This document shows positions 7,571 to 62,524 of a stretch of 64,000 nucleotides of DNA, one piece after another. Each line of letters opens with the position of its first letter. The first letter of the stretch is position 1. Both the position numbers and the translations under genes were made by a program. Where the stretch lies: the NCBI GenBank assembly GCA_037974665.1, contig CM075769.1, forward strand, positions 24,615,139 to 24,679,138, in the 5' to 3' direction. The notes beneath the pieces were generated by a model, which saw only the letters and a program-made list of their open reading frames with translations, did not search any database and had not been told where the DNA came from. This DNA is from Ehretia macrophylla. Lineage: Eukaryota > Streptophyta > Magnoliopsida > Boraginales > Ehretiaceae.

Positions 7571-8086
7571 CGAGGACGACCTACTTTGTCATTCCTCTTA
7601 TGTGATATTTGATATACTTGGATTTCGTGATCTTGTCTCGGGATTGCACAACCTTTTCGGACATGGTAAAGTCGAGAAACACGGGTGGCATCGGGCTTGC
7701 CGTGCTCTTTTGACTACCATGGTGCCTATTCCATTTCTCTCGCTGAGTATACTCCACGACCCCAGAGGCGTGGTTCACATGCTGGGCATATGAACCTACC
7801 TCAAGAGAAAGGGTTGTAGGATCGGGGTACATCCGAAGTACCCCATATTTGGAGGAATAAGGGTTTGCCGGCGCTTGCTTGAAGATCTTGGCTCGTGGCT
7901 CGTGATGGAAGACAAGTGGAACCGTATCCTTTTTATACGTGGTTAAATATTTGTCTAATTAACTTGTTTATTTGTGTTATTAATGTTTTTATCTTGTTGC
8001 ATCTTATGAAAACACACCCTGGTTTACTGCATCACCTCTCTCGCTGAGCAACTGTGTTACTCACTCCTCTTTTCAACATGTCCCAG
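7571..8086 (+). other. Conserved LTR hairpin module, solo LTR K
   Basis: HP1 pairs GAGGA.GAC with GTC..TCCTC around CTACTTT (7572-7597). The closing stem CATGGTA (7662-7668)/TACCATG (7715-7721) encloses GGCATCGGGCTTGCCG. HP4 is a perfect GGGGTAC/GTACCCC stem with loop ATCCGAA (7824-7844). HP3 TGAGCAA/TTACTCA (8045-8063, one mismatch) ends 23 nt before CCCAG|G. Confidence 0.6.
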
Positions 8087-16093: not shown

Positions 16094-18295
16094 TGTGAGA
16101 CCCCAAAGTTGACTTATTTGCAATTACATGTTCTCACCTGTTTAAATGATATTAGAATTAATATATATGTGCTACTAAATGATCTTAGATTAATGTGCAT
16201 TTAAAAGACATTTGAAAAACAAATAACATGACTTTTCACCTTCTTTTGCAAAATTATGCATTGTACTTTGATTGTATGTAATTGTATGCTTATATATAAT
16301 TGTTGTCCCCAAAAATACTTTACTAAATATATAGTATATGTTAGATTATTTATATATGACTATTTTAATGCAAAAATCAACTAAAAACACTAAAATTGCC
16401 AACTTTGACCAAGACTTCTTGCTTTGACTTTGTATTTAACTTAATATATACACCAAAATCAGCCAAAACACCACAAATACATACTCAAAAACATGAGCCT
16501 TGAAGGAAGAAAGAAAAATAGTATTTTTCAAGGGTTTTCAATATTTTTTGAAGAAAAAAACTCAATTCAAGGCCAAATCCTTCCATTCAAAGCTTGCTTT
16601 TGATTGTTGGGCTTGCATTCTACCTATTTCTAGCCTTAGTTTGCATCAAATTTGAGGGAAAAACTAGATCATTTTTTAAAGTTTATGTCAAATTTTTATT
16701 GTTGCATATATAGTTGTTAGTTTGTTAAATTGACTTAAGATGTTGTTAGTTAGGTGTTGTAAACCAATTTAGTGTAATTATAGCCATTTTAAACAGTAGG
16801 AAGATGTATTTTTATTTTTCATGTATTATATTGGTAATTTGGTTAATATTTTGAATAATTGTAGTTGTAGTAGTTGTTTTCAAGTTGTTGTTGCTTCTAT
16901 AGGCTTGTTAATTATTGTGTAGTAATGTTATAATGCCAAATTTCAATTGAATGTCATGGTAGAAGTCAAAAATTTCAGCCCATAGTGCATTGCCATTTTG
17001 GACTTGTTGGGATTGTTTTAGATGGCTTTTGGTTGGTTTTTAAGGGGGTTTATGTAGTTGCTTGAGTGGTTAGGTGGTAGGAGAAGTTTCGGGGGTTGTT
17101 TGATTGATAGATTGCAAGTTATATTATTTAGAAGTTTGGGTTGTCTTTCTTTGATTTAGCTAAGTGTTGTCTTTAAGTGTTTGGTGTTGTTGGTGTCGTT
17201 GATACTTGGGTTGGAGTTAAGTAGGCCCAAGTTTGAATGTGTGTTGAAGTGTTTGTTGAGTTTGGATGGCCTACTTTGTCATCTAACTTGGGTGTCTTAG
17301 TTGTTTAACTAATGTTGAGTTGTTGATTGTTGAAGTGATGTTTAATTGATTGTTGAATGTTGAAGTACTGGGAAACAACCTACTTTGTTGTCCTCTCGAA
17401 ATGTTAAGTGTAAAGTGTTATCTGTTGTGAGTCGTGATAATGTTGTGTCACCTCAGGCAGTATTGGACTTGCCGGGTTGCATTGGCACTATCATGTGTTA
17501 TCCCCTATCCTACATGATCAGAGGATGTTCATGGGGTATGGGTCTAGGTTTGTGTATTTCCGGAATGCATTTGGTACATGGGTAGGGTTCGTGATTGGTG
17601 CACGGGGAGAACGATTTCAACAGAACGAGTGTATCATATCCTTATTTGATTGGTTACTTTTATTGTTATATTTGTATTGTTGTTGATGCTTGTTGTGTTT
17701 TCAATGTTCCTAGGGTGTTTTCCAAATGAAAGTGTTTTCAAAATCTCCTATTGAACCCTCACTGAGCGTTGTTATATATAAGCTCACCCTCTTAGCTGTC
17801 CTTTCAGGTGTTCCAGATTTAGGGTACGTTTAATATGTGCTGTCAGATAATGTGGACAAGCCCGAGGCTTGAATGCTTGCTTGGATGCTTTATATGTTGT
17901 CCTTGAATTTTATAATGTGTTGTATTGTATAAAGTTTCAAAGTTTGTAATGTATAACTTAACTTAAGGATAATAGGTTGTATAATGCTAGTTTAGTCTTT
18001 CTTTTGGAATATGAGTAGGTTGCTAGACTAGTTTAATATCTATTTTGCATATGTAAAGTATGGTTTATGTATGTTGTTGAGATGGAGTCATTGTATCTTG
18101 TTGTTTAGATGTTGGTTGGTTGGTTTATGAAAGTTGTTGAAGTTGTTGTTGGAGTTGTTGTTGGAGTTGTGGTTGTTTGAGAAGTGTTTGTAGAGAACCT
18201 GTTTAAGGTTCTGTTGTCCATATTACATATGTTATAATGCCAAAATTCCACCGCATCTTAACTGATCATAAGTGGGGTCCTGTTGGGGCATGACA
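16094..18295 (+). mobile_element. LTR C (diverged relative of family B)
   Basis: 2,202 bp from TGTGAGACCCC to GGGCATGACA. It aligns with LTR B throughout but with clearly more differences than the two B LTRs show. Leader, hairpin module and LTR end are recognisable. No primer-binding site follows. Confidence 0.75.
17273..17807 (+). other. Conserved LTR hairpin module, LTR C
   Basis: HP1 TGGATGGC, loop CTACTTT, GTCATCTA (17273-17295), with a G.U where family B has A.U. A second CTACTTT loop lies near 17375-17400 with ACAAC/GTTGT arms. HP3 TGAGC/GCTCA (17763-17786) lies 21 nt before TTTCAG|G at 17807. Confidence 0.5.
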
Positions 18296-19564: not shown

Positions 19565-21490
19565 TGTAAGGCTCCGCACGAAACCCTATATGTATTTATA
19601 CCATTTAATGCGTGTCTATAATGTTTAGTGAGAAAATACATCGTTTTACGTGCAAGAGGATTTTAAGAGACTAAGACTTATATGAGTTTTCAATTTTGAC
19701 ATAATTAAAGTACTTATATTATTAGTCATTTAGGATTTTAGGTATGATTGCCGATTAAACCTCTTAAGACTTGTCAATTAAGTACTGACTGAGTAGTAAT
19801 CAAACAAAATAAAATAGTAGAAATATGTAGGTAGTGGCCGGCTAGATGCAAAGTGAGAAGGAAGAGAAATAAAAGAAAAAGAAAGAAAAAAAATCAAGAC
19901 ATTTAGACATTAGAAGCTTTTACATGCAATTGTCTCGTTTAGCGTGCACTTGCGTACATTAATGTTAATTTGGGTGTTTTAGGTATCGTACAAAATAATT
20001 AAATATTACCAATTAGAAATTAAGTAACTAGATTAGTAAATAGACAACTAGAATTGGAAACTAGAAGATAAGCAATTAGTTGGAGGGCATGTTGGTCATT
20101 TGGTATTTATAAGAAATATCCTACCTACCTTTGTCTTCAAAAAACTAAACAAAAACACAAACAACATACACAAACACTTAAAATCGGATGAAGCACACAA
20201 ATATACACACACACGGCTGAAAGGAAAGTAAAGAAAAAGAAGAAGAGGAAGGAAGGAGAAATAGGAAGAGAAAAGAGAAGAGAAAGGAGGAAAGACTAGG
20301 AAACTTGCTTGTTCTTGCTCCATCTTGCTAAACCACCACTTGTTCTTCCATCCAAACATCATGAAGGTGGGGAGTATTTCAAAGATTAAAGCATAATATT
20401 GCATGATAATTTTATGAATATGCTTGAATGTTCTTATGATAGCTGTTCTGCGCACCAACTATTTTGAGGCTATTTGGATAGGCAAATGTTGATGAAATTG
20501 TTTGATTTTGGAGTGTATTACACTAGACTTATAGTGGAACAAAGTTTGTGTTGGGAGTTTGTTGAGATTGAGTCGTCATGAAGCTCATTTTAACTCATTT
20601 ACGTGAGGCTACAGTAATAAGTTATGAACAAACCCCATGGTAGAAGTTTCGGTTTTTCCTGGGCGGCATCGGGCTTGTCAGGATGGTCTGGGCTACCATG
20701 GTTTTGGGTTGCCTTCGGAGTACCTTCTTGTTTGGCGGGTTTGGGAAAGATATCGATAGAAGATTAGAGACTAGCTATCTCCAGCAAATGCTCATGCAAC
20801 TGTATCCTTTTACTATATGGTTCCTATTCTCGCTTGGTCTCTAGAGGTCCTCAGAGAGTTGAGTTGTTGCTTGTTATTATATTTAATTCCATTTCTTGTT
20901 ACAAGATCATATTTGCATGGCAGTTGATTGCTTGTTATCATGTTAATATGTTTATACTTGTCCTTATTGATGTTCAATACCATGTAATTTCTATTCATAG
21001 GTTGTATTCATGTGTACATGGCATATTTTCTTCAAATGTTTTCGAAATACAAAATAATTGCAAAAATTCACGTTCCCTTTACTCCTCGCTGAGCTAGGTG
21101 TAGCTCATCCTTTTTTTATCATCACAGGTTGTTCGAGTTATAAGCAGAAGGTTGACTTTTACAAGTGGATTATGCATTTGATGGTTGTATGTGAAGGAAT
21201 ATGTTTGTGACATTAGTCTTTAGTGATGAAGTTTGCATAATATGTATTATTTAAATTGATATAATAGTTAGATGTTGTATTTAGGACATTTTGGATTCAA
21301 TAGACTTAATGTAATTGCAATTTTGTATATTTAGGATTTAGTATTTGGGAAGTAATTATTCAATAGTCTTGATGTATTGAATTGTGGTTAATAGCGCTCG
21401 AACTTTTGTAATTGTGACTTAGCTAACTTAGGATGAATGATCTTCTTAAGCCCGTGGCATCACGATCCCAAGAATTCTTTTGGATATTAC
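19565..21490 (+). mobile_element. LTR G
   Basis: About 1,926 bp from TGTAAGGCTCC to just before TGGTATCAGAG. It shares the common layout: TATTTATAAG (about 20104), CA- and GA-rich leader (20150-20300), donor-like AAG|GTGGGG (about 20367), GC motif GGGCGGCATCGGGCTTGTC, hairpins and acceptor CACAG|G at 21127. A purine tract precedes it and a primer site follows, so it sits between two interiors. The right end is approximate. Confidence 0.7.
20635..21127 (+). other. Conserved LTR hairpin module, LTR G
   Basis: The closing stem is a perfect nine-pair CCATGGTAG (20635-20643)/CTACCATGG (20693-20701) around GGGCGGCATCGGGCTTGTC. HP3 is a perfect TGAGCTA/TAGCTCA with loop GGTG (21090-21107), ending 20 nt before CACAG|G. 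No CTACTTT hairpin was found. Confidence 0.6.
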
Positions 21491-25153: not shown

Positions 25154-26278
25154 TTCTATGTTGTTTAATGTCTTGTACATTAGCTTAATAGACTTTTATA
25201 TGCTTTATGGTTCTTATTGTAATAGATGTTGAAAAGATGATGATCCAAATGATGTTAACTTAGTGGCTTTCTTTTGTCTATAGTTAAGTTGTTAGATGGG
25301 TCTCAACTTATTTTTGAAATGTATGATAAGGTTGAGGTATTGTATGTTATGTTGGAACGGAGGCAGATAACGAAGACTGATTATTGTATATTACGGTTAT
25401 GTTGTTTGTTGTTACGCTGTTGAGGAGTTATTGTTTGTATGGTTATAGAATTGGATGTTTAATGTTATTAATGAGGTTGGTTTAGAACCTCGGTAATCTA
25501 TTTACTGTCGTTATACTGCCGAAATTCCGTTGCGTCCTGACTGATTGTAGGTGGGGTCGAGTTGGGGCGTGACAGTGATCGTCATCAAAGTGGAGTGATA
25601 AGGGTTAATTGAATCGTATCATTTTTAAATGTGCTATCTAGCTTTATTGTCTTGAATGATTATCTTGTATTGTTATTGATTATATAGCTTGTTTATATGC
25701 ATTGCACGAAAAGCTTTCAAAAACTCCCAGGGTTAATTCTTCTCCCTCCTCACTGAGCATTGTATGTGCTTACCCTTTTCATCTACCATGTTTCAGGAGA
25801 AGTAGAGCTTGGCCCTCAAGTTGTTGTAGAAGAGGAAGAAGTTGAGGTGTTTCTGTGACTTGTTTGACTTGAGGTTGGATGCTTTGTGTAATATGTGATC
25901 GGAATGTGTTGAAGTAAATTTGTACTTGGTGTCATAAACATGTATTCTATTTTAAGGCCTAAGTAGTCTTGTATGTATTTCATATGTAAGGGCTTGTATT
26001 CTAAGGTTATGGTTAGTTAGTAGAACAACATGTAAGTTACTCTTATAACTGTTTTAGTTTCACGGTTGCCTATTTAGAATGCATGTAACTTGTCTAGTAA
26101 GGAAAGCCAAGCCTATCTTGTATCTTAAATGAGGCTCAGTATGGTATTGTTGGAATTGTTGTATGTTGTTGAGGTCTTCTATGTGTAGGTATCATTTTGT
26201 TCGCGGTACAGAGGATACTCTGTCCATTTGTCAGGTCCGGACTCAATCTCTAGGTTGGGGTTAGTTCAGGGCGTGACA

Positions 26279-27977: not shown

Positions 27978-28591
27978 TGGATGACCTACTTTGTCATCTA
28001 ACTTAATTGTTTCATAATTGTATAGTTGTTGATTGTTAAATGTTGTTATTTGGGTATAGAAATATGGTTTAATTGGTTATTGATTATTGATTGTTGAATG
28101 CGAGAGTTGGGCAACCCTTGTTGTTGACTCCTCGAATTGGAATTGTTATTGTTATTATGAGTCGAGAGTCGGGCAACCCTCGTTGTTGACTTCTCGAATT
28201 GAGTCACATTGTTGTGAGCTTTGATAATGTTGTGCCACCTTGGGAGGCATCCTAGGCTGCGGGCACAATTATCATGGCTACTCCCTATCTCGCATGGGTA
28301 AAGAGGCCATGGGGTGCGGGTCTAGGTCAAGGTACCTTAGAATTGTGTCATTGGGTTTGAAGGAGTTGGCGAGCATTGAAAATGGTGTATGGAGCTTCAT
28401 CAACAAGTGTATCGTATCCTTATTGTGTGTTCACTGTTGTTATTATATATGTATAGTTGTCAGTGTTAATTGCGCGTTGTAGCCCGTGGGTGGTTTCCAA
28501 GGTGGTAAGGTATATGTGTCCAAAAGATCTATTGAATTCCTCACTGGGCTTGTTTTATATAAGCTCATTCTCATTCGTTATCTGTATTCAG
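27978..28591 (+). other. Conserved LTR hairpin module, LTR F1
   Basis: HP1 TGGATGAC, loop CTACTTT, GTCATCTA (27978-28000). Two copies of a longer hairpin at 28101-28134 and 28163-28196 pair GGCAAC with GTTGTT inside CGAG/CTCG arms. The closing stem TGATAAT (28222-28228)/ATTATCA (28268-28274) is continued inward by GTGCC/GGCAC. HP3 GGGCTT/AAGCTC (28545-28567) ends 24 nt before TTCAG|G. Confidence 0.6.
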
Positions 28592-35377: not shown

Positions 35378-35991
35378 TGGATGGCCTACTTTGTCATCTA
35401 ACTTAATTGTTTTATAATTGTAGAGTTGTTGATTGTTAAATGTTGTTATTTGGGTGTAGAAATATGGTTTAATTGGTTATTGATTATTGATTGTTGAATG
35501 CGAGAGTTGGGCAACCCTTGTTGTTGACTCCTCGAATTATAATTGTTATTATTATTATGAGTCGGGAGTTGGGCAACCCTCGTTGTTGATTTCTCGAATT
35601 GAGTTACATTGTTGTGAGCTTTGATAATGTTGTGTCACCTCGGGAGGCATCCTCAGCTGCAGGCACAGTTATCATGGCTACTCCATATCTCGCATGGGTG
35701 AAGAGGCCATGGGGTATGGGTCTAGGTCAAGGTACCTCAGGATTGTGTCATTAGGTTTAAAGGAGTTGGTGAGCATTGAAAATGGTGTATGGAGCTTCAT
35801 CAACAAGTGTATAGTATCCTTATTGTGTGTTTACCGTTGTTATTATATCTGTATAGTTATCAGTGTTAATTGCATGTTGTAGCTCGTGGGTGGTTTCCAA
35901 GATGGTAAGGTATATGTGTCCAAAAGATCTATCGAATTCCTCACTGGGCTTGTTTTATATAAGCTCACTCTCATTCGTTATCTACATTCAG
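35378..35991 (+). other. Conserved LTR hairpin module, LTR F2
   Basis: HP1 TGGATGGC, loop CTACTTT, GTCATCTA (35378-35400): G.U here where F1 has A.U. The doubled GGCAAC/GTTGTT hairpin is present. HP3 GGGCTT/AAGCTC (35945-35967) ends 24 nt before the acceptor. Confidence 0.6.
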
Positions 35992-40242: not shown

Positions 40243-40247
40243 CAACA
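40243..40247. repeat. Target-site duplication (left) of the whole A element
   Basis: CAACA, matched exactly at 49927-49931. Flanking sequence on both sides belongs to the same integrase zinc region of the F element. Confidence 0.95.
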
Positions 40248-40789
40248 TGTGAAACCCCACTTTCTTGCTTATCTCGTTTTACGTGCTATACCTCATTTTT
40301 CGTGCATATGATCTGTTTATGTGCTATAGGACCTAGAAAGTTATAATTTTGATGTCAATACTTCTAATACGTGCTAAATGTGCATTCATGAAATTTTCAT
40401 AAAAAACGGAGTCAGAAATTTTATCGTCGATTTTTAGTGAATAGTGTTTTCGAAACACGTCCGCTATAATTTTGAAAATGGTCTTTTTAACCCTTCTAGA
40501 CCTAGTCCACGGACTTTAATAGACCTGTGTTTGATGAAAACGGTTTTAAAATCGGCTTAAGAATTTATTAGGGTTTTTACACCGACTTTTGCGAAAATCG
40601 AGTTTTAAGCCGACTCGGGTGAAATTATTAGATTGTAAAACTTCTTGTCACCTAAAAATAACTCACTTGAGATATCTTGGGGGTTGCATAATTATTTTTA
40701 ACTTGGTGAGCAATAAAATGCAATTAAAGTCATTAAAAACACAAAAATACTAATTTAAATTAACTTTGACTTTAATTAATTATTTGACC

Positions 40790-40796
40790 TTATAAG
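40790..40796 (+). promoter_or_regulatory. Candidate TATA box in the 5' LTR
   Basis: TTATAAG about 25-30 nt before the CA-rich leader. The same place in other LTRs holds TATATAA (A1), CTTATATATATG (B) or CTATATATC (F). The identical 3' LTR copy is near 48113. Confidence 0.5.
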
Positions 40797-41647
40797 CTAA
40801 TGTCCTCAACACACACTCACACAACACAAAAACACACTCACACAACACAAAAACACCATCACACACACACACATTGCCGAGAGAAAAGAGGGAGAAAAGA
40901 GAAGAGAAAAACTCAAGCTTTCAATCCAATTTTTCAAAGAAAAACCTAGTTTTTGTCCGTGAAACTTCGCACCGACTTGGATTCTGCTTGTTGGGCACGC
41001 ATAGCACGCATTCCTAGGCTTATATCGCATCTAAGGTGAGAGAAAAATTCTAGATCTCAAAATGTCATTTTTGTGTTTTTGCGTATAAATGAAGATTGAA
41101 CCGTTAGAATTGAAATCTGATGTTAGATTATTGCTCCTTGCATGCTAGGGATCATTATATACTAATACTACGAGTTTCTGTCGGATATAGCATAATTTTT
41201 ATTTTCCGGGTATTTAATTTTGATTAAAATGTTCAAAGTTGAATTAAATGAGTTGTGTTGATCGAAATCGATTGCCGTCGATTTCTAAATACTTGATAAT
41301 TACGTATTAGCGCTGTTGTAATGCCGAATTTTCGATTACATTGTTTGTGTGAAAATCCAGAAAATCCAGCCATGACATCTTAGGGTTTTAGGGTTATCGG
41401 GCATGATTTGGAGGTGTTATGGTGGATTTCCGAGAGGGCTAATGTAGTAGGTTGAATGGGTGAGTGATAGGAACTGATTTGGCAATGTTTGGATTAGTAG
41501 ATTGTAAGTTATGAATTTTAGAAGTTTAGGTTGTCATTCTTTAATTTCTTGAACTATGCCTTAGATGGTTGGGTAGTGTTCGAGTGATGAATGGTGAGTT
41601 GTTGATGAGTAATTTAGAGTTTAATTATGTATATTATGCATGTCCGG

Positions 41648-42194
41648 TTAGATGGCCTACTTTGTCATCTAACTACGTTGTTTGTTGTTTAATTTAATAT
41701 TGATGTTATATTGATGTTATTGATTGATTATTATTGAATGCGGGAATCGGGCACTCTTGTTGCTGATCTCCCAATTGATTGATTGATTGATGATTGATTG
41801 ATGATTGATGATTATGGAGTCTTGGTATGTGTGTGCCACCTCTCGGGCAGCGTCGGGCTGTCGGGTTGATAACGGCATGACTGCCATAGGCTACCCCCAG
41901 CTCGCATGACGGAGGTGTCATGGAGGGAGGGGCTAGTGAGGTACCTCGGGTGCGTGAGTAATGGGGAGTTATAAGAAGAACGGTTGAGATCGTGATGGCG
42001 TTTGGAGCTACACCAAATAGAGTATCCTTATTGATTGGTTATATAGTTATGTGATGATAGCATTATTTATGTTGTTGTGTGTTTACTTGCTCAAAGGACT
42101 AAATCCAAGGAGCGTAGTGAATACTGTCGAGATCTATCGGATCCTCACTGGGCTTATGTATATAAGCTCACTCTCTATTATTGCATGTTTTCAG
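41648..42194 (+). other. Conserved LTR hairpin module, 5' LTR A3
   Basis: HP1 TTAGATGGC, loop CTACTTT, GTCATCTAA (41648-41672). A GGGAATC/GATCTCCC hairpin lies near 41743-41772. The GC motif CGGGCAGCGTCGGGCTGTC is at 41844-41862. HP3 TGGGCTTA, loop TGTATA, TAAGCTCA (42149-42170) ends 24 nt before TTTCAG|G. Confidence 0.65.
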
Positions 42195-42295
42195 GTGTAC
42201 TTTCACAAGATTACGGGTACGTGCCTCCTGACGAGGAGAATGTGGAAAACGTGCCTTTCGTGGATGAGTCATATGTCCCTGAGTCTTATCCATGA
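42195..42295 (+). CDS. Short LTR-encoded peptide frame (5' LTR A3)
   Basis: The frame reads LSQDYGYVPPDEENVENVPF then VDESYVPESYP and TGA. It is also open upstream to a Met at 42077, giving a 72-codon frame if unspliced. Acidic and Tyr/Pro-rich; no domain recognised. Identical in layout to the 3' LTR copy. Confidence 0.4.
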
Positions 42296-42610
42296 TTCTA
42301 TGTTGTTAACTTAGTGGTTTTCTTTTGTTTAGGATTAAGTTGTAAATGTGTCTCAACTTATTTTTGAAATGTATGATAAGGTTGAGGTATTGTATGTTAT
42401 GTTGGAACGGAGGCGTATAACGAGGATGGTTTATTGTATAATATGATTGTGTTGTATGTTGTTGTTTGAATTAAGGAGTTGCTGGATGTATGATGTTTAA
42501 TGAGGTTGGTTTGCAACCTCGGTGTCCTATTTACTGTCGTTATACTGCCGAAATTCCGTTGCGTCCTGACTGATCGTAGGTGGGGTCGAGTTGGGGCGTG
42601 ACAGTTTAAG

Positions 42611-42622
42611 TGGTATCAGAGC
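42611..42622 (+). promoter_or_regulatory. Primer-binding site of the whole A element
   Basis: TGGTATCAGAGC, seven bases after the LTR. Initiator-Met tRNA complement. Confidence 0.9.
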
Positions 42623-45800: not shown

Positions 45801-47669
45801 TGGGGCAGTAAGTTCGAGATTTTCACTGATCATAAGAGTCTAAAGTACTTATTCTCACAGAAGGAGTTGAATATGCGCCAGCGGAGGTGGATGGAGCTTC
45901 TTGGAGATTATAATTGTTCTATCAATTATCTGCCTGGAAAGGCAAATGTTGTGGCAGATGCTCTCAGCCGGAAGGCTAGTATTTCTTGTTTGGCTGTCAA
46001 GAAGTGGGAGGTTCTTGAGGAGTTTAGTTATTGGAGACCAGAGTTCACTCAGGTTGGGGTGATGTGTTCACATCTCCGTATTCAGCCTTTATTGTTGTCT
46101 CAGATCAGGGAAGCTCAGCAGCTTGATGTTAACCTTCAGAAGATCAAGGATCAGATTTCGGATGATCAGTCTGACTTTAAAGTGCATGAGGATGGTATTC
46201 TTCGGTTTCGGAACAGGGTTTGTGTTCCCGATGAACCGGGCTTGAGACGAGGTATTCTGGAGGAAGCTCATAATTCTAAATATACTATTCATCCCGGTGG
46301 AACCAAGATGTATCGGGATTTGAAACAGCATTACTGGTGGAACAACATGAAGAGGGAGGTTGCTCAGTTTGTGTCTAGATGTTTGACTTGTCAGAGAGTG
46401 AAAGCCGAGCATCAACGACCAGCAGGTTTGCTTCAGCCGTTGGCTATACCAGAGTGGAAATGGGAGCATATTACGATGGACTTCGTCACTGGTTTGCCTA
46501 GATCACCGAGGGGTAATGATGCAGTTTGGGTTGTCGTGGATCGTTTGACGAAGACAGCTCATTTTATTGCCATGAGGTTGGGAGATGAGGTTACAAAGCT
46601 GACGGATCTCTATCTGGATCAGATCGTTAGACTTCACGGTATTCCATCTAGTATTGTCTCTGATCGAGATCCTCGATTTACTTCTCGTTTGTGGGAGAAA
46701 CTTCAGGAGACTTTGGGTACTCAGTTGAACTTCAGTACAGCGTATCATCCACAGACCGACGGTCAATCTGAGCGGACTATTCAGATTTTGGAAGATATGC
46801 TTAGGGCTTGTGTTCTGGACTTCGGGAAGAACTGGGAGAAACATCTACCACTTGCCGAGTTTGCCTATAACAATAGTTATCAAGCTACTATTGGAATGGC
46901 ACCTTTTGCAGCTCTTTACGGTCGTAAGTGCCGTTCACCTTTATATTGGGACGAGGTAGGAGAGATGAAGACTATTGATCCGACTATTATGCCAGAACTT
47001 CTTGAGAAGATCGAGAATGTTCAGTTGATCAGGCAGAGAATGCTTACGGCGCAGAGTAGATTCAAGAGTTATGCTGATAAGCGTCGTCGAGACTTGGAGT
47101 TTGCAGTTGGAGATCGGGTTTTCTTGAGATTGTCTCCTCGAAAGGGGTTTGTTCGTTATGGTAAAGGTGGTAAGCTGAGTCCGAGATTTGTTGGGCCGTT
47201 TGAGATTACTGGCAGGGTTGGTAAGTTGGCATATCGGTTGGCTTTACCGGAGAACTTCTCTAATGTCCACGATGTATTTCACGTGTCTAATTTGCGGAAA
47301 TATAATCCGGATCCTTCTCATATTCTTGAGCCAGAGCCGTTACAGCTTCGAGAGAATTTGACTTATGACGAGCGTCCGATTCGTATTCTAGATCAGATGG
47401 ACCGAGAGTTGAGGTCGAAGAGGATTCTGATGGTTAAGGTGTTGTGGAAGCATCACGGCATTGAGGAAGCTACGTGGGAGAGACGAGATCAGATGCAGCA
47501 ACAATACCCAGATCTATTCCGTACATCAAGTAAGAATTTCGAGGACGAAATTTCTATAAGGGAGGGAGAATGTGAAACCCCACTTTCTTGCTTATCTCGT
47601 TTTACGTGCTATACCTCGTTTTTCATGCATATGATCTGTTTATGTGCTATAGGACCTAGAAAGTTATAA
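42873..47669 (+). CDS. gag-pol: Gag-pol polyprotein with C-terminal chromodomain
   Basis: One continuous frame of 1,598 codons; the start chosen is [10 protein letters not shown], which all related copies here share, although the frame is open for 21 codons upstream. Residue positions from this Met: capsid-type [11 protein letters not shown] near 130; Gln/Tyr/Pro-rich linker; CCHC knuckles from 344 ([14 protein letters not shown]) and 364 ([14 protein letters not shown]); protease Asp 441 in [20 protein letters not shown] near 775-783; RNase H Asp 924; integrase HHCC zinc region from about 1133; catalytic D1203, D1264 and E1300, the last pair 35 residues apart as usual for integrases; chromodomain about 1497-1550, ending [18 protein letters not shown]. 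Gag and pol share one frame, as is common in this clade. The stop lies inside the 3' LTR, so the last 32 residues are LTR-coded. Confidence 0.95.
47558..47570 (+). promoter_or_regulatory. Polypurine tract of the whole A element
   Basis: AAGGGAGGGAGAA directly before the 3' LTR. It lies inside the gag-pol reading frame. Confidence 0.85.
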
Positions 47670-48970
47670 TTTTGATGTCAATACTTCTAATACGTGCTAA
47701 ATGTGCATTCATGAAATTTTCATCAAAAACGGAGTCAGAAATTTTATCGTCGATTTTTAGTGAATAGTGTTTTCGAAACACGTCCGCTATAATTTTGAAA
47801 ATGGTCTTTTTAACCCTTCTAGACCTAGTCCACGGACTTTAATAGACCTGTGTTTGATGAAAACGGTTTTAAAATCGGCTTAAGAATTTATTAGGGTTTT
47901 TACACCGACTTTTGCGAAAATCGAGTTTTAAGCCGACTCGGGTGAAATTATTAGATTGTAAAACTTCTTGTCACCTAAAAATAACTCACTTGAGATATCT
48001 TGGGGGTTGCATAATTATTTTTAACTTGGTGAGCAATAAAATGCAATTAAAGTCATTAAAAACACAAAAATACTAATTTAAATTAACTTTGACTTTAATT
48101 AATTATTTGACCTTATAAGCTAATGTCCTCAACACACACTCACACAACACAAAAACACACTCACACAACACAAAAACACCATCACACACACACACATTGC
48201 CGAGAGAAAAGAGGGAGAAAAGAGAAGAGAAAAACTCAAGCTTTCAATCCAATTTTTCAAAGAAAAACCTAGTTTTTGTCTGTGAAACTTCGCACCGACT
48301 TGGATTCTGCTTGTTGGGCACGCATAGCACGCATTCCTAGGCTTATATCGCATCTAAGGTGAGAGAAAAATTCTAGATCTCAAAATGTCATTTTTGTGTT
48401 TTTGCGTATAAATGAAGATTGAACCGTTAGAATTGAAATCTGATGTTAGATTATTGCTCCTTGCATGCTAGGGATCATTATATACTAATACTACGAGTTT
48501 CTGTCGGATATAGCATAATTTTTATTTTCCGGGTATTTAATTTTGATTAAAATGTTCAAAGTTGAATTAAATGAGTTGTGTTGATCAAAATCGATTGCCG
48601 TCGATTTCTAAATACTTGATAATTACGTATTAGCGCTGTTGTAATGCCGAATTTTCGATTACATTGTTTGTGTGAAAATCCGGAAAATCCAGCCATGACA
48701 TCTTAGGGTTTTAGGGTTATCGGGCATGATTTGGAGGTGTTATGGTGGATTTCCGAGAGGGCTAATGTAGTAGGTTGAATGGGTGAGTGATAGGAACTGA
48801 TTTGGCAATGTTTGGATTAGTAGATTGTAAGTTATGAATTTTAGAAGTTTAGGTTGTCATTCTTTAATTTCTTGAACGATGCCTTAGATGGTTGGGTAGT
48901 GTTCGAGTGATGAATGGTGAGTTGTTGATGAGTAATTTAGAGTTTAATTATGTATATTATGCATGTCCGG

Positions 48971-49517
48971 TTAGATGGCCTACTTTGTCATCTAACTACG
49001 TTGTTTGTTGTTTAATTTAATATTGATGTTATATTGATGTTATTGATTGATTATTATTGAATGCGGGAATCGGGCACTCTTGTTGCTGATCTCCCAATTG
49101 ATTGATTGATTGATGATTGATTGATGATTGATGATTATGGAGTCTTGGTATGTGTGTGCCACCTCTCGGGCAGCGTCAGGCTGTCGGGTTGATAACGGCA
49201 TGACTGCCATAGGCTACCCCCAGCTCGCATGACGGAGGTGTCATGGAGGGAGGGGCTAGTGAGGTACCTCGGGTGCGTGAGTAATGGGGAGTTATAAGAA
49301 GAACGGTTGAGATCGTGATGGCGTTTGGAGCTACACCAAATAGAGTATCCTTATTGATTGGTTATATAGTTATGTGATGATAGCATTATTTATGTTGTTG
49401 TGTGTTTACTTGCTCAAAGGACTAAATCCAAGGAGCGTAGTGAATACTGTCGAGATCTATCGGATCCTCACTGGGCTTATGTATATAAGCTCACTCTCTA
49501 TTATTGCATGTTTTCAG
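48971..49517 (+). other. Conserved LTR hairpin module, 3' LTR A4
   Basis: HP1 at 48971-48995 and HP3 at 49472-49493, same arms and loops as the 5' LTR; HP3 ends 24 nt before TTTCAG|G. Confidence 0.65.
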
Positions 49518-49618
49518 GTGTACTTTCACAAGATTACGGGTACGTGCCTCCTGAAGAGGAGAATGTGGAAAACGTGCCTTTCGTGGATGAGTCATATGTC
49601 CCTGAGTCTTATCCATGA
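49518..49618 (+). CDS. Short LTR-encoded peptide frame (3' LTR A4)
   Basis: Same frame as 42195-42295 with one amino-acid difference near the middle. Open upstream to a Met at 49400. Confidence 0.4.
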
Positions 49619-49926
49619 TTCTATGTTGTTAACTTAGCGGTTTTCTTTTGTTTAGGATTAAGTTGTAAATGTGTCTCAACTTATTTTTGAAATGTATGAT
49701 AAGGTTGAGGTATTGTATGTTATGTTGGAACGGAGGCGTATAACGAGGATGGTTTATTGTATAATATGATTGTGTTGTATGTTGTTGTTTGAATTAAGGA
49801 GTTGCTGGATGTATGATGTTTAATGAGGTTGGTTTGCAACCTCGGTGTCCTATTTACTGTCGTTATACTGCCGAAATTCCGTTGCGTCCTGACTGATCGT
49901 AGGTGGGGTCGAGTTGGGGCGTGACA

Positions 49927-53422: not shown

Positions 53423-55059
53423 TGTAATACCCTGATCCCTCACGAGACCGGAACCCCGATCCAAATCTCGAGGTCATAAAAACGAGAAAAAACGAACCGA
53501 GTTTTTCCTGTTTCTAGGCCTATCCACAAACCTGCACACAGAAGAAATAGCCAAAGCAACATACCAACATTCATAACATAACTTTCCAAGTACCTAAGGC
53601 TATCCGAGCCTTTCTACTATAACAAAATGTAACATACAAACATGCATTTCATTTACTATTGAAATTCTATGTCATAAATCCTCTTATCTTATCACTCTAA
53701 TCTTATTTACTTAACATTCTTATATTTTAAGTCAATCATCCCACACAAACATGCGAGCCATCTAAGCAATTAAAGAAAAACTCAAAAGTTATTACATGCC
53801 AGCTATTAACTATTAAATCTTACAAGACTTTAATACAACCCTCTGAATCAAATACATTTACATACAAAACCTCTATGATCACAAAGTAGATCACAAGCTA
53901 AGCTATTCAAATACTTTACATAAATTCACATATATCAATCAGTAAAAGGTAAAACATCCAATCATGGAGACTCTCGAGCCTTCTCCCTATCAACCTCTGA
54001 AGGCACTGAACCTGAAATGGTTAGAAAAAGAGGAATGAACAACCATTGTTGCCCAGTGAGGGAGGAAAACAGATAATCGAGGAGTTTGGAAAACTATTCA
54101 TGCAATGCAAATAAGTTAGCGAATCTAAAAACATAAAACTCTCACTCAAGACAAACAAGTTAATCAATACATTAAAAGAACTAACTTAAACTATTATAAC
54201 AAATAAACAATTAAAGACTTGTAATGAACTATAGCTAAGTAATAAGTTACATATAAACAATAGAAAATGAACAACACAATCACATACGAACCACATCATC
54301 ACAATAGAATCAACTAATAATACCAATTAAATAACTTTTAAGTAAATAATACAATCATTGGTAACTCTACAAGGATTTAGGGCCCATGTGAGAGTTACCC
54401 AAAAGGATACGATCTCAATAACTCCAAACACTCCAAAGTCTTGATCGCGATCACCAACCTCAATCCACGAACCACGAACACGATCAATGTGCAGTATAAA
54501 CCTAAAATACTCCAGTGGGTGTACTTCGGATGTACCCCAAAATCTTATGACCCAAAACCCCCTGGCGATCTCCGAACCATGCGAGAGTGGGATTAGGAAC
54601 TATGGTAGCCGAGGTATACCGGCAAGCCTGATACCGCCCGATTTCCCAGACACTACCATGCCCAAATGGTTGCGCAACCATAATACAATTCTATACGATA
54701 ATATAATATTTCAATAACAATTATAATCACACAATTAGATAAATACATAAGCTAGTAAGCACACAATGAGGACAATAAAATAGGTTGTCCTCGCACATAA
54801 GCAATTATAATCAATATAACTTTAAACATGTTCTAACCCAATAAAATAGCTCAAACACTTATTATCCACACATTAACTATCATAATACAAAGCAATAAAT
54901 CAATTAAGATGTCAAGTAAGATGAATCTCTCACCTTAAGATAGCCAAAGGATACAAGAACTAGCGTTAATCTACTCTCAAACACCTTGGACTGGCTTAAT
55001 CAATTAAACCCTAGCATGTAGTAGAACACACACTTATCACAAGAAATCTCATAGATGTA
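53423..55059 (-). mobile_element. Incomplete minus-strand LTR D' (relative of LTR D)
   Basis: On the minus strand it ends GGGATCAGGGTATTACA, close to the D end. 53590-53720 matches the region after the acceptor in D. A donor-like CTTAAG|GTGAG lies at about 54937, the hairpin module at 54012-54792 and acceptor TTTCAG|G at 54012. The start is missing where the D element begins. Confidence 0.7.
54012..54792 (-). other. Conserved LTR hairpin module, LTR D' (minus)
   Basis: Read on the minus strand: HP1 GAGGACAAC, loop CTATTTT, ATTGTCCTC (54768-54792); closing stem TGGTAG/CTACCA (54653-54658 and 54603-54608) around CGGGCGGTATCAGGCTTGCC; HP4 GGGGTAC/GTACACCC (54517-54538); HP3 TGGGCAAC, loop AATG, GTTGTTCA (54036-54055, eight pairs with two G.U), ending 23 nt before TTTCAG|G. 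TTCTAACC precedes the acceptor, a good branch-site match. Confidence 0.65.
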
Positions 55060-58000
55060 TGTGACGCCCCGCACTTAGTAGATAGTGCATAACACCTGTT
55101 TGCATATGATTATGTGCTTAATAAAGTGTTTATGTTAAGTTTATGGCATTTTAAGGAAGGTTACTATTCATTTACATTTTTTTATTGTTTTATTTCCTTG
55201 TTTTTAAATTTTTCCCATAATACTTGACATTTAGGAGGCATGAGAAAATTGAAATACTTGCATAACATGTCGGGAAGGCGAGTAGATAAAATGTTTTGTG
55301 TGTTGCAATGAATAGTAAATTTCAGCATTTTAGTTTTAGCTTTTAATTGATTTTTCTTTGCATTGAACTTAACTTAACCAAAATAAAACAAACTCACACA
55401 CACACATACACCACTAAATGGTTATAACACAAACACACACACAAAATACAAACAAAAATATACTCTTCACACATACAAGCCAAAAATCAGCCAAAGAGAG
55501 AAAGAAAAATGAAGAGCAAACCGTGGGAGGAGAAAGAGAGAAGAGAAGGAAGAAGAAGAGGAAAAAGGGTGGAATATCTCAACCTTGCATCCTAGCTTGT
55601 TTTTGGTAAGCTATTTCATGGTTTTGTGCATTTATTTAGTTAAACCTAACTTTGGCAAATTTTGAGATTTGATATAAATGCTTATTTTTATGGTTTTAAT
55701 TACTTCTAATGGTGTTTATCATGATAGTAGAACATTCTTTTGTGCTTTGCTTAGTTGTTTAGCCATTGAAATGCCTATAGGATAGTTGGAGAAGATGATG
55801 AATACTGTTGTGAATAGTAAATTTTAAAAATTAGGATTTTTCGATCTAAATTGTATTTTATCGCTTTGGTTATGTGCCATGAATGCTTAGAAGGATAAAT
55901 GTATCATTTAAATGGATTTAACATTGCTAGAACTGAGATATTTGAGTTGGAACATAAAGGGATTGTTTTGTGCAATTGGGTCGTTTGGATGATTTGAGTG
56001 TTTGTAGAACTTCATTGTGATTGGTTGATGATTATAGAGTGCCTAGTAAGCTCGTGGTATTCTCTCGTGGCTTGGTAACTAGTTAATATAGCTAGAATTG
56101 AAAAATCTTGATTGGAGCTTAAAGGGGTCGTTTGAATGAAGTGTTGACCAGGCACTTTTTGAGTGGTTATATGGTCTTAGATAGGCTAGAAAGTGATTGT
56201 GGTGCGATTATGATGTTGATTGAGTGATCGGTTAAGATAGCTGTAGTTCAAATGGGCAATGGGGCAAATAAGAGTTTTGAGCTAAACGTGGGTTAAAGTG
56301 TGATTTCGTGTGATTTAAGCGCATCATAAAGTGTCTATAAGTATGTGGTGAAGTTGGTTTACGAGTCTCGTATCTTAAATAGAGTGGGTAGCTTGAGGAA
56401 GTTGGCTAAATAAATAGTATTTTGTTGAATTAAAGGTTAATGCTTGATTTGATGCTTCTAGTGGGTGCCATAGGTGTTAAAATACTGAATTAAGGCTTGG
56501 AATTGCCAGAATATGGCTAGAACTTGGAGTGGGTTGATTGAGCATAAAAGGGCCATTTGTGTGGTTTTTGGGTCGTATGAGTGTTGTGTGTGTTTATAGA
56601 GCTTGATTGTGGTTCATAAGTGATTGTGAGGTGTCTAAAGTGCCTATAATGTGCATTCGATGGTAGATGGCTAGTTCTATAGTTATGGAGCAAAAGGGGC
56701 TAAATGAAAGAAAGTTAGTTGATTGTTGGCATTTGAATGTGGATTGATTAGTTGAGTGGTTTAATGAACTTGATTGGAATTTGGGGTTAATCGGGGAAAC
56801 AAAGATGATCGAAATGCATGGATAGATAGGTAGTTGAGTTTTATGAACATTGGTGTGCCATGTGTATTCTATTAAGATTTGGGTGTTTGATTGGAGTTCT
56901 TTGAATTCTTTGGGTGTTCCTTGAATATTAAGTGTTTGATTTTTGTGTGGGGTGTATTGATTTGAGTTAAGTGGAATATGGAGTGGTTTTGGTAAAGTAG
57001 GATATGTATAGGTGAATGCTTGAATTTGGTATGAATTGGAGCTTTGAGCTAAAGTAATGGTTGCTAGGTATATTGCTATCTTGAGGGAATATGATTAGTT
57101 AAATTCCTTTGAGTCGAGTATGTGTTAATTGCATATAGATTCCTATCGTGAGTTGGATTGCATGTATACTTTATCTTGAATTGAGTGAAAATAAATGTTC
57201 TCTTGTTTATATTGATTGTATAGCTATTATTGGTATTCTATTGCCTACTTGTAAGAATGTTAAGTGTACTTGTATTAGAATATAGATGTTTGAAGAGATT
57301 CTGGAAGTAAGGGCTATCTAGTTATGATTTATAAAATGTATAGTTGCGTGGATTGAATATGCTTTATGGTTTGTTCTAACTGCTAATGTTTATATGTCTA
57401 TCAAATTGTGAGATTAATAAAAGAATGTTAATGTGTTAGTTAAGTAGCGAATGTAATGTATGCTAATTAATGTAATGTATTTGATAGTTACGTTAGTTCA
57501 ATGGAATCAAATGGAAATGAATAAGTTAATGGAGTTATGAACTAGCTTTAGTTGAGAGTAAATGTGGAAACCACTTGTAGAATGAATGTATAACTTCTTA
57601 TGCAAATAGTTGATTGTATTATGTGGTGGTAATTGAAGGAAATAGTGCATTCAGAGAATATTTAAAGGAGTTCTTGGCTAAATTCTCACAGGTTTGGTTT
57701 TAAAAGGCAAGGGATTCTTTTTACTTCAAATCTTAATTGATTTATTGATTTGCATTATAATGAATATTGTGTGGCTAATATGTGTGATTGAGCTATTTTA
57801 TTGAATTAGAATATGTCTAAAGTTATATTGATTATAATTGGTTGTGTGCGAGGACAACCTCTTTTGTTGTTCTCATTGTCTGCTTATTGGCTTATGTACT
57901 TATCGAATTGTGTGTTTATAATTATTATTGAAATATTATATTATCATATCGAATCGTATCGTGGTTGCACAACCATTTGGGCATGGTAGTGTCGAGGAAC

Positions 58001-58967
58001 TCCGGGCGGCATTGGGCTTGTCGATGTACCTCAGCTACCACCCACTAGAGTGATTAGGGTTATGCTTGCATTGTTATGGAGTGACTGGGGTTATATGACT
58101 ACGATGGAGAATTTGGAGTGTTTGGGGATATGTGATTGTAATAGAGACTTTGAAGTGTTTGGGAATTATCGAAATCGTATCATTTCGGTATGTGTCGTAT
58201 TTAATTGCTTAATTGTTTCTTATTGTTTTGTTACTGTTTTCTTGTGATAACTGTTCCCCTCCCTCACTGAGTATACATGTATTGTATGCTCACCTCTCTT
58301 TTCTAACACTTTTCAGGTAAGACAAGTTTTGTTCTTTCGAAGTTTGTGGTTCAGGAGGCTTGGGGAGTCTTCTTGATTTCTTGTTGCTAGCTTGGATTTG
58401 GTTGTTGCTTGAGTAAATTGTAAATGGTTATGTATATTCTTTTGAGAGTATTAGTGTCTTGTGTATAGTTGTTATTGTAATATGCATAAGTGTTATTTTG
58501 AGTTAGAGGTCTTGTATGTATTGATGTTTGCTTTGGAAGATTGTAATTTAATGTTGAAGACTTGTATGATTTAGTAGTTAATAGATGGCCTGTAATAACT
58601 TTAGTGCATTTTTTAAAATGCTTAGATGGCTCGTATGCTTGTGTGGGATGATTGACTTAAAATATAAGAATGTTAAATGGATAAAATTAGAGTGGTAAGA
58701 TAAGCGGACTTATGACAAAGATTTTCAATAGTTAATGAAATGCATGCTTGTATGTTATATTTTGTTATAATAGTAAGGCTCGAATGGCCTTATAGATTTG
58801 GAAAGTTGTGAGATGAGTGTTGTGCATTGTCTTTGTGGCTTTTTAATTTGCGCACAGGAGTGAGATTAGTCCTAGAAATAGGGAAAACTCCATCTGTTTT
58901 TTCTCGTTTTTCGTGACTTCAGGTTTTGGATCGGGGCTTCGGTCTTGTGAGGGATCGAGGTGTTACA
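55060..58967 (+). mobile_element. 5' LTR of element D
   Basis: 3,908 bp from TGTGACGCCCC to GGTGTTACA. CA-rich leader (55390-55480), GA tract (55530-55570), donor-like TTG|GTAAGC at 55605/55606, acceptor TTTCAG|G at 58316 (intron-like length 2,711 nt), with TTCTAACAC before it. It is the longest LTR here; extra length lies in the intron-like part. Confidence 0.8.
57850..58316 (+). other. Conserved LTR hairpin module, LTR D
   Basis: HP1 GAGGACAAC, loop CTCTTTT, GTTGTTCTC (57850-57874). Closing stem TGGTAG (57984-57989)/CTACCA (58035-58040) around CGGGCGGCATTGGGCTTG. HP3 TGAGTATAC, loop ATGTATT, GTATGCTCA (58268-58292, nine pairs, one G.U), ending 24 nt before TTTCAG|G. Confidence 0.65.
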
Positions 58968-58969
58968 AT

Positions 58970-60048: not shown

Positions 60049-62524
60049 GTCCCGCCTCAACCCTAGCCCCACGCTAAAAGGGTAAGTTCGGACCCGACAA
60101 ATGGACAGAATCTTCTCTGTACCGTGGACAAAACGGTTACCTGCAAACAGAAGAAAAACCACAAACCACACAAAACAACCCTCACAACAAATCCAAGCTT
60201 CAACTTCACAACTTCCCAACACTAAGGCCATTCGAGCCTTAAGTCAAGACAATATAAACACACAAGCATGCAAAAGCAAAACCGTTGAATTTTTATCTTT
60301 TAAAACCCGCTTATCTTACAATTCTAATCATATCAATTAAACTTTCTTATAAATTAAGTCCAACCAAGCAACTAACTTTCAGTAACCACACAAGCATGCA
60401 ACATTAACAAAAAAGCAAAGTTATAAGTTATTACATGCCGCTACAATTCAAACCACACATCATCAACTAACTATTACAATCCTTTGACAACATAAATATA
60501 CACAAGACCCATAGGGCTCAAAATAGATTAAATATGCACAACAACTTCACATTCTTCACATGATCAACCAAACAAGCCAACCTCAAGCAACAAGTAACAC
60601 AGCAACACAACACTCAAGGCAACTGCTCTAACTGTACCTCCTCCTCTCCCTCAACAGCTAAAAGCTGGGGATCAACCTCAGCACCTCCTGAAATATGTTA
60701 AAACGAGGAATGAGCAACCACAATTGCTCAGTAAGAGATGGGATACAATTAACCGGGGTGCTTTTGAAAATCTTTTCGTGCAATGCAACAGTTAACTACA
60801 AGTATAGTGGTTAAACAATTAAAGTATCGAATAAACAATAAGATACCACACATTTTTAAAGTATACGATCGATAACCCTTATCCCTTCAACTCTTCGTTT
60901 CACGAACCACGAACCTTGATCTCGATCTCGATATATCAGCATCCCTTTACACCAATGGGTACTCCGAATGTACCCGATCCTATGACCCACACCCTCTGGC
61001 ATACTCCATACCAGACGAGTGGGGGACTAGGGTATGGAGCTAGAGCAACCAACACTGGCAAGCCCGATGCCGTCCAGAGAGGCCCATCGTATCCGTCCTG
61101 AATGATAAGGTTGTACAACCAACAATTCGATCACACAAATAATAATGATAAAACAATATAATAATATAAACCAATAAACACGTAGTTGAGGGTCAACAAA
61201 GTAGGTTGCCCTCATACATGATTTTCAATATGTAAGCAACTCAATAAGCATTCAAATAAAATGATAAGAGAGTTTCCAAGCCAATACTAGCACTAAACAC
61301 AACTTTAGCACTTTTCCCCTTTGTCTACTTGCACAATTTAGGTTCCAATCGAAACATAAATAACACAATTCACAAGCTAACTATCCTACACTTCTAATGG
61401 CACTTTATGACACCTCTTGATGCTAGGAAAACCCATTTTTAACTATGTTAAGCACAAAACCTCCGAAGGCCCGAAGGTGCGTTTGAACTACAAGTACCCA
61501 AACTAACCCCCAATTTGGTGCCATAAAAGCACATTAAGCATTCTCACACCTAATAAACACGATCTATAACGTCCAATTGCACCTGGATTCACTTTTCATA
61601 CGAAGCCCCTTTTGAAATTAGCTATTTTTGCATTTTAAGCAAGTTCCTAGCAAACTAACTACACACGATCATCAATCTATATTTATTAACACCTATAACA
61701 TGTAATTATAGCATAGAATCAATCTCTAAGTCACATTTTAACAAAACCCTAAAATTGGCACTATTTATTGTCTCCTACAATTGAGCATTTGTAAATAGCC
61801 ATTAAAGAAGCCTTGTAACTACACAAACAAGGTCTCTATTGCATGTAGGCATCATATATCACTATATTTAAGCATCCGTTAAGCAATTAACAACAAATCT
61901 AAGAAATCATAAAACTTGACAACATATTAAAGATGCAAAATTTATGCTATAATCCCTCACCAAAGGTGTATAGATGCAAGAGAATGGCTTAGGAACTTTG
62001 GAAACCACTTGTATCTAGCTTGTAGGAGCCAAAATTTGAAGAAGCAAAATGATTTTTTTTCCTCCTTTTCTTTTTGCTAGCCGTCGGCCATATGAAAGGA
62101 CAATGGTAGAATTTTTACAATTGTTATGTATGCTTGTGTATGTATATGTAATGTTAAGTGTATATATGTTATCTATGTTTAATTATTTTGGGTCAACAAT
62201 AATATAAAACAAGCAAAATATAGCCCAAAACTCCATTAAAAACTAACTAGTCCAATAACTGTGTTAGACAATGTTTTTACTATTCACTCAAACCACAAAC
62301 CATTTTCTAAACGAGCTCTCCCAACATGCAATGCTCAAATTCTCATTTTTCTCATTCATCCAATAGATCAAATAACATAGGAAATATGCTAATTTAGAGA
62401 ACATAAACAGTTAAAAATCATGATGAATAGTAACTAATCATAAGACAAGTAAATGCACATTGAAATGCACAAACAGGTATGCAACAGTTAATTATAAACA
62501 TGATAGAGATCTCGGGCGTCATAA
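60049..62524 (-). mobile_element. Solo LTR, family L, minus strand
   Basis: About 2.48 kb. On the minus strand it starts near TGACGCCCGAG and ends GGCGGGAC. The flanks fit a TAATT duplication (60044-60048 and 62525-62529), since the host LTR reads straight across at the equivalent site near 58250. Terminal bases are slightly uncertain. The minus strand shows a leader, donor-like AAAG|GTGTA near 61966, hairpin module and acceptor TTTCAG|G (60688). Confidence 0.75.
60688..61213 (-). other. Conserved LTR hairpin module, solo LTR L (minus)
   Basis: Read on the minus strand: HP1 GAGGGCAAC, loop CTACTTT, GTTGACCCTC (61188-61213); closing stem CAACC/GGTTG (61109-61113 and 61046-61050) around GACGGCATCGGGCTTGCC; HP4 GGGTAC, loop ATTCGGA, GTACCC (60957-60975); HP3 a perfect TGAGCAA/TTGCTCA (60711-60730), ending about 22 nt before TTTCAG|G. 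Confidence 0.65.

Follow-up and report, generated by a model that had tools for sequence, protein, structure and literature searches.

The window, by which we mean the whole analysed stretch of 64,000 nt, is crowded with nested LTR retrotransposons whose own features mark them as plant-type. Element K has a single long gag-pol open frame, in which Pfam (run on three pieces) identifies GAG, protease, reverse transcriptase (RT), RNase H and integrase domains. The order GAG-PR-RT-RH-INT is that of Ty3 elements. Membership of the Ty3/gypsy Tekay (Del) chromoviruses was assessed for K only, where a C-terminal chromodomain is hinted at by a PF00385 match (E 0.0024, 18.2 bits) that lies below the cut-off of 25.1 bits. 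The sequence TGGTATCAGAGC behind the 5′ LTR of K is a primer-binding site (PBS), presumably of the initiator-Met type. K sits inside the pol of an F-like element; the pol homology of the copy at 36-40 kb ends at 40248 and restarts at 49922-49926. The D LTR (55059-58968) is about 3.9 kb long, with a predicted 2.7-kb intron within it.

Thirteen LTR copies in the window contain a hairpin of the form TGRGY...GYTYA with a downstream CAG (Table 1). The hairpin of the 5′ LTR of K, with its CAG at 42192-42194, agrees with its earlier description, as do the arms listed for the other families; D is on the plus strand, and Dm (the earlier D′) and L are on the minus strand. The distance from the last A of the stem to the end of the CAG, claimed in the original prediction to be 20-24 nt, falls within that range in all 13 copies. 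The spacer measures 21 nt in nine copies, 20 nt in L, 18 nt in B and C, and 17 nt in G. CAG/G (the slash marks the putative junction) is intact in 12 of the 13, with CAA in A2. Inner mismatches are found at positions 6 and 8 in C and at position 8 in B, G and H. Three decayed homologous copies (8045-8063 on the plus strand, near 15460 and near 62545) were excluded from every count, and all three retain CTCAC at the 3′ foot. Acceptor and donor decay in an uncoordinated way: A2 and the B-like copy near 15460 retain the donor and have lost the CAG.

All 13 stems end on the A of a YTNAY motif, which is placed at −20 to −24; no other YTNAY is common to all copies. A branch-point motif of U2 type is expected some 18-40 nt upstream of the AG, and the motif lies at such a position in every copy. 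Since the A of YTNAY closes the stem, the 5′ arm TGRGC is complementary to the branch-point motif. A U12-type branch point (CTAAC or TTAAC at about −10 in D, Dm and L) was rejected, being absent from the other families.

Table 1. Features of element K and hairpin copies in the window (window coordinates)
Feature	Position	Strand	Remarks
K LTRs	40247-42603 and 47570-49926	+	99.6% identical to each other
K TATA-like site (from 40790) and predicted exon 1	40790-41035	+	C/A-rich; last 200 nt ATG-free; ends in CATCTAAG at the predicted junction
K predicted LTR-internal intron, GTGAGA...CAG	41036-42194	+	1159 nt; T 0.37; 41 ATGs
K 5′-LTR hairpin, TGGGCTTAT(gtat)ATAAGCTCA	42149-42170	+	3′ foot CTCAC (YTNAY, branch-point-like), A at −24
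K pyrimidine-rich spacer and CAG acceptor	42171-42194	+	3′ splice-site score second-best in LTR and leader
K phase-1 tail ORF, GVLSQDYGYVPPDEENVENVPFVDESYVPESYP then stop	42194-42295	+	behind acceptor
K primer-binding site, TGGTATCAGAGC	42611-42622	+	behind 5′ LTR
K 3′-LTR hairpin and acceptor	49472-49517	+	donor GT at 48359
A1 hairpin and acceptor	2397-2442	+	donor GT at 1274
A2 hairpin, acceptor decayed to CAA	25016-25061	+	donor GT at 23867
F1 hairpin and acceptor	28545-28591	+	donor GT at 27378; tail ORF ends 28683
F2 hairpin and acceptor	35945-35991	+	donor GT at 34764; tail ORF ends 36083
B hairpin and acceptor	4859-4903	+	donor GT at 3770
C hairpin (inner pairs decayed) and acceptor	17763-17807	+	TT at equivalent donor
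G hairpin (TGAGCTA with TAGCTCA) and acceptor	21090-21127	+	donor GT at 20367
H hairpin and acceptor, LTR fragment	25754-25796	+	donor unassigned; tail ORF GEVELGPQVVVEEEEVEVFL then stop
D hairpin (10 bp) and acceptor	58268-58316	+	donor GT at 55606; predicted intron 2711 nt
Dm hairpin (TGGGCAAC with GTTGTTCA) and acceptor	54012-54055	-	donor GT at 54933
L hairpin (TGAGCAAT with GTTGCTCA) and acceptor	60688-60730	-	donor GT at 61960; tail ORF GGAEVDPQLLAVEGEEEVQLEQLP then stop
Decayed L-like hairpin	8045-8063 (8045-8086 with acceptor)	+	one mispair, position 5; CAG/G kept
Decayed B-like copy	near 15460		position 2 mispaired; acceptor CAA
Decayed D fragment	near 62545		one inner mispair; acceptor TAG

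The LTRs had been described as otherwise dissimilar, which is incorrect: they form two homologous groups plus G. A, K, F, B and C are homologous at about 64-91%, and L, H, Dm and D give BLAST matches of 76-81% over some 66-104 nt at the hairpin (L-H, L-Dm and D-Dm). Only G lacks a BLAST partner in the window. The hairpin families are therefore not independent. Pairing was compared with a tree-aware null, in which each column evolved independently on a tree of the flanking sequence (modest supports, 0.44-0.99) with its number of changes kept (3000 simulations). For the nine window families and 8 + 8 arm bases, 67 of 72 cells are paired; the null mean is 50 and none of the 3000 simulations reached 67. 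Restricted to inner positions, the same null gives P = 0.0013 for 6-8 and P = 0.0003 for 6-7. The enlarged set comprises the nine window families and 17 genome loci (26 sequences, 17 distinct arm pairs). Here position 6 is paired in 16 of 17 arm pairs (T-A or A-T), position 7 in all 17 (T-A, A-T or T-G) and position 8 in 11. Positions 6-7 together are paired in 33 of 34 cases, which none of 20,000 arm shuffles equalled, the shuffle being one that ignores relatedness. The outer arms are nearly invariant (their five pairs vary by G-U exchange alone) and the genome loci were preselected for these pairs, so the evidence for covariation comes from positions 6-8 and from the G-U exchanges farther out. 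D and Dm, whose LTR segments are 79-85% identical, nevertheless carry compensated differences at positions 7 and 8 of the stem. The proposal of an RNA structure maintained by pair-preserving change thus holds in the larger set and under phylogenetic control. Single-sequence folding of nine copies supports the stem weakly: exceptional scores with the hairpin in the optimal structure come only from F (z −4.3) and D (z −3.1), the z of B is +0.45, and H and Dm favour a different fold.

The strict hairpin pattern occurs six times in the window and in none of 100 dinucleotide shuffles. In the 1.58-Gb host genome it has 20,090 matches (10,070 forward and 10,020 reverse), and the same pattern read backwards as a control has none there. 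Among 100 listed genome places, which all come from the initial 15 Mb of a single contig, 19 distinct inner sequences were recognised by eye. All 19 form at least two extra pairs, none of them required by the pattern; 0 of 20,000 letter shuffles equalled this. At G000:C1:1074909-1082021, one hairpin class occurs three times at a spacing of 3,533 nt, like a tandem LTR array. Rfam at the gathering score gives no match in the window. Among viral contigs, 95 loci match the pattern, of which 61 (our own count) are one GC-rich phage-like sequence. A PBS-like word accompanies 2 of the 95, as judged from 15 nt of flank, GC content and PBS words, and on these features we take the matches as chance. A 200-residue piece of pol found nothing in the viral contigs. 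A collection of genome contigs yielded ten, bacterial judging by title alone.

The LTRs share an order of elements consisting of a TATA-like site, a C/A-rich and ATG-poor exon, a GT donor, a T-rich stretch of 0.8-2.7 kb, the hairpin, the pyrimidine-rich spacer and CAG/G. The TATA-like site is 183-262 nt upstream of the donor in 10 of 10 LTRs, a count that leaves out Dm, includes a poor site in D and carries no chance control. The last 200 nt of exon 1 hold no ATG in A1, A2, F1, B and the two K LTRs (K1 and K2), one in F2 and L, two in D and four in Dm, compared with 18-86 ATGs per LTR in the predicted intron. The T content rises from 0.15-0.34 in exon 1 to 0.36-0.42 in the intron in all 10 LTRs measured. 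Downstream of the acceptor, T content and ATG number remain intron-like; the contrast is with exon 1 only and the downstream side does not resemble a clean leader.

Donor-type sites lie upstream in the same LTR in A1, A2, B, F1, F2, K1, K2, D, L, Dm and G. They read AAG/GTGAGA in K, A, F and Dm, AAG/GTGAGG in B, AAG/GTGGGG in G, TTG/GTGAGG or TTG/GTAAGG in L and L-like loci, and TTG/GTAAGC in D. A regular expression for the commoner types has 10 matches on the two strands of the window, each at an LTR donor position; the D and Dm donors escape it. Of the 26 distinct genome loci fetched, 15 contain an upstream match (by rows, 17 of 28, since L130 and L131 duplicate L106 and L107; eight loci hold just 1.5 kb upstream), and two further matches fall elsewhere in those loci; the expression was shaped after some of them had been viewed. 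By approximate splice-site matrices, the CAG acceptor has the highest score of the stretch scanned in F1 and the second-highest in K1 and D. The predicted introns have the GT...AG ends and the donor and acceptor consensus of the U2 type, except for C (TT at the donor) and for A2 and the B-like copy (CAA at the acceptor); the donor of H is unassigned. The spliced junction of exon 1 and exon 2 of the first group, with exact bases demanded in exon 2, has no match in the genome, so no retrocopy of a spliced RNA is seen. Joined exons would be expected in the genome had spliced RNA ever been reverse-transcribed and retained; their absence is compatible with spliced RNA being strictly barred from reverse transcription and equally with a lack of splicing at this donor. 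In L117 and L118, the acceptors read CCCCCCCAGTGCAG/G, with tandem AGs after a C-rich tract, and the stems are of TTTCCCAGA or TTCCCCAGA type.

The bases behind the CAG encode a short acidic peptide in two groups, in a single frame (set by G/GN after the CAG) with third-position bias. The first-group tail (K, A, F and many genome loci) reads GVxxQDYGYVPxEx..ENVPYVDESYVPESYP and the second-group tail (L, H, L114, L115, L119, L122, L123 and L127) reads GSAEGDPQLVEVVVEEEEVQAEPLP, each followed by a stop. Most window pairs of first-group tails differ chiefly at codon position 3, and a 9-nt indel is in frame. Over seven chosen copies per group, differences at codon positions 1, 2 and 3 number 69, 102 and 217 in the first group and 94, 123 and 230 in the second (the pairs are not independent). 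A single-pair binomial excess at the third position was found in four of the five pairs tried (P = 0.002-0.02); the pair L114-L115 has none. Judging by these frames and their third-position bias, a translated exon starts directly behind the CAG in two or more groups. Five loci (L116, L117, L118, L120 and L121) stop after 3-4 codons, and the tails of D and G in the window and of L106, L110-L113 and L128 are non-acidic. The stem of these six loci is the commonest class among the 100 listed genome places or a close variant; L127, of the same class, has an acidic tail. A start codon for the tail peptide was sought in exon 1 and is absent from most first-group copies, and in K and Dm a TAA stands just before the junction in the tail frame. 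A protein search with the tail and the exon-1 frame found no protein.

Further donor-type sites lie in the coding regions. A donor-type CAA/GTAAGA at the end of pol is kept in K and in three further window pol ends, with a phase that would fit joining to the tail in K and L126; in L119 and L127, second-group loci that are otherwise decayed, a stop stands just before it. GAG/GTAGGC, in phase 1 and 25 nt past the gag ATG in K, F1 and F2 (listed by position, 29388, 36788 and 42898), is either coding or a donor. A good donor, CGG/GTACGT (GTATGT in A1), occurs 22 nt past the CAG in the first-group tail exon, at 42217 and equivalent positions; a micro-exon between the CAG and this site is possible.

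From the observed hairpin with its covariation and fixed spacing, the donor- and acceptor-type signals, the change in composition between exon 1 and intron and the coding constraint in two groups, we infer that the hairpin belongs to the 3′ splice site of a U2-type intron inside the LTR, where it would mask the branch point and preserve unspliced genomic RNA. We hold this with slightly better than even confidence; that splicing occurs, which A is the branch point and in which direction the hairpin acts are predictions from sequence. The earlier proposal that the hairpin presents or masks a 3′ splice site is the best-supported reading, and it is sharpened by the YTNAY foot, the donor 0.8-2.7 kb upstream and coding past the CAG in at least two groups; the splicing itself stays a prediction. 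Transcription would start near the TATA-like site, which precedes the hairpin by about 1.0-2.8 kb, and would give a short ATG-poor exon whose GT donor would be joined to CAG/G, with the intron wholly within the transcribed part of the LTR. The likely branch point would be the A that ends the stem on its 3′ side (YTNAY, −20 to −24), and pairing with TGRGC would conceal it from U2 snRNA. A branch point hidden in this way would make lariat formation slow and leave the RNA only partly spliced, and a stem over the branch point would be a simple brake on the first splicing step. Spliced RNA would act as mRNA. Unspliced RNA must persist because it is the sole carrier of the full LTR for reverse transcription; constant removal would delete the intron from the reverse transcript, yet the intron persists across diverged families, which implies retention of unspliced RNA. 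Against a masking effect, work in tobacco reportedly suggests that plants tolerate hairpins at 3′ splice sites.

A wider and distinctly tentative proposal is that each LTR in a large group of plant Ty3-type elements contains a splicing switch resembling those of retroviruses, in the form of a branch point masked by the hairpin. In the 5′ LTR it would shorten the leader; in the 3′ LTR the same acceptor would open a terminal coding exon, so that a spliced protein derived from gag or pol would gain the acidic tail. The genome-to-mRNA ratio would then depend at both ends on one covarying stem. The part concerning the 3′ LTR is based on the GAG/GTAGGC and CAA/GTAAGA sites, each kept in phase 1 in at least three window elements.

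Instead of the 3′ foot, the CTCAC that precedes the stem, at about −44 to −50, might be the branch point, the hairpin looping out 18-25 nt and so aiding splicing. Eleven of the 13 copies do have a second YTNAY adjoining the stem on its 5′ side (CTCAC; CTTAC in L), and the distance after looping would be normal, but B and G have CTCGC there whereas the 3′-foot motif is present in all 13, and we regard this arrangement as unlikely. It is quite improbable, in our estimate, that the hairpin in the transcribed LTR serves the genomic RNA, for instance in Gag binding, dimerisation or export, with the splice-like sequences secondary. Conserved RNA structure is common in the leaders of retroelements, splicing is predicted only and the genome search for the first-group junction gave nothing; against this role are the fixed distance to a near-invariant CAG/G, the YTNAY foot, the donor in the same LTR and the coding frame in two groups. 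A DNA palindrome or core promoter, with TATATAAG in the 3′ arm and a CA initiator about 32 nt downstream, is very improbable. TATATAAG is found at a promoter-like distance from the CA in A, B, C, F and K, but is missing from the stems of G, H, D, L and Dm; this restriction to one LTR group, together with the other TATA-like site before the donor (10 of 10 LTRs, without chance control), disfavours a core promoter, and the retained G-U pairs are RNA-like. That protein coding across the stretch produced the hairpin incidentally is hardly credible. In B, C, A2, F1, F2, K1 and K2 the frame of the tail does extend upstream without a stop for about 31-58 codons, but stops occur inside the stem or close to it in A1, D, L and H and about 23 codons upstream in G, and pairing is retained there too.

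We call the LTR hairpin with its putatively masked branch point a form of retroelement splicing control, the splicing being putative. Plant LTR elements are generally intron-free, with Ogre and EVADE as notable exceptions in the available part of a 2025 review (PMC12786077). The Ogre intron, as far as the sources at hand describe it, is internal and joins coding regions; here the candidate intron is inside the LTR, with both donor and acceptor there, and not between PROT and RT. EVADE and BARE1, of the Ty1/copia class, resemble the present elements in alternative splicing, with an early stop past the junction and genomic as well as short-GAG RNAs. They differ in class and in having the protease region spliced out, and the accessible text of the review mentions neither a hairpin nor an LTR intron for them (PMC12786077). 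Cer1 of Caenorhabditis elegans is likewise Ty3-related; some of its RNAs are spliced, and its TTTCAG-type acceptors are conserved (PMC10309623, in part). The spliced mRNA encodes a separate protein, CERV (PMC12786077), and an LTR intron or branch-point stem is not mentioned in the portions available. In HIV-1, weak branch points and acceptors retain unspliced RNA, and low 3′ splice-site efficiency is given as a key replication factor in the excerpt at hand (PMC1697824). The parallel to splicing slowed by a hairpin is an analogy: HIV-1 belongs to another element class, and in that excerpt the weakness comes from motif quality and the pyrimidine tract and not from a conserved branch-point stem. 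Repeated palindromic motifs in Sirevirus LTRs likewise show dyad symmetry conserved in plant LTRs. These have a CGG-CCG core, are located upstream of the TATA and are read as transcriptional in the available text (PMC2829016), unlike the single AT-variable stem here, which is far downstream of the TATA-like site. A direct-RNA study of sunflower reports, in the part at hand, spliced isoforms in two elements and an expressed set without Tekay elements (PMC7730604). The text of a paper on centromeric chromoviruses contains no word starting with "intron" or "hairpin" (PMC3059260), and the titles and abstract openings listed from a mainly non-subscription literature include no LTR-internal intron or branch-point hairpin of a plant Ty3 element.

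If the masking of the branch point is real, an abundant group, with about twenty thousand strict LTR copies in one genome, would set the balance between genome and mRNA by a concealed branch point, in parallel with retroviral control through weak acceptors. Regulated acceptors, with a coding exon in two groups, would then be dispersed through a plant genome, and this would partly account for the length and conservation of these long LTRs.

In several elements, a donor-like GTAAGA just before the polypurine tract is followed by an inverted repeat (AATTTCG..CGAAATT or AATTGC..GCAATT; at 47530, 33988, 13732, 51131 and 21549), which may be a splice donor or a polypurine-tract hairpin.
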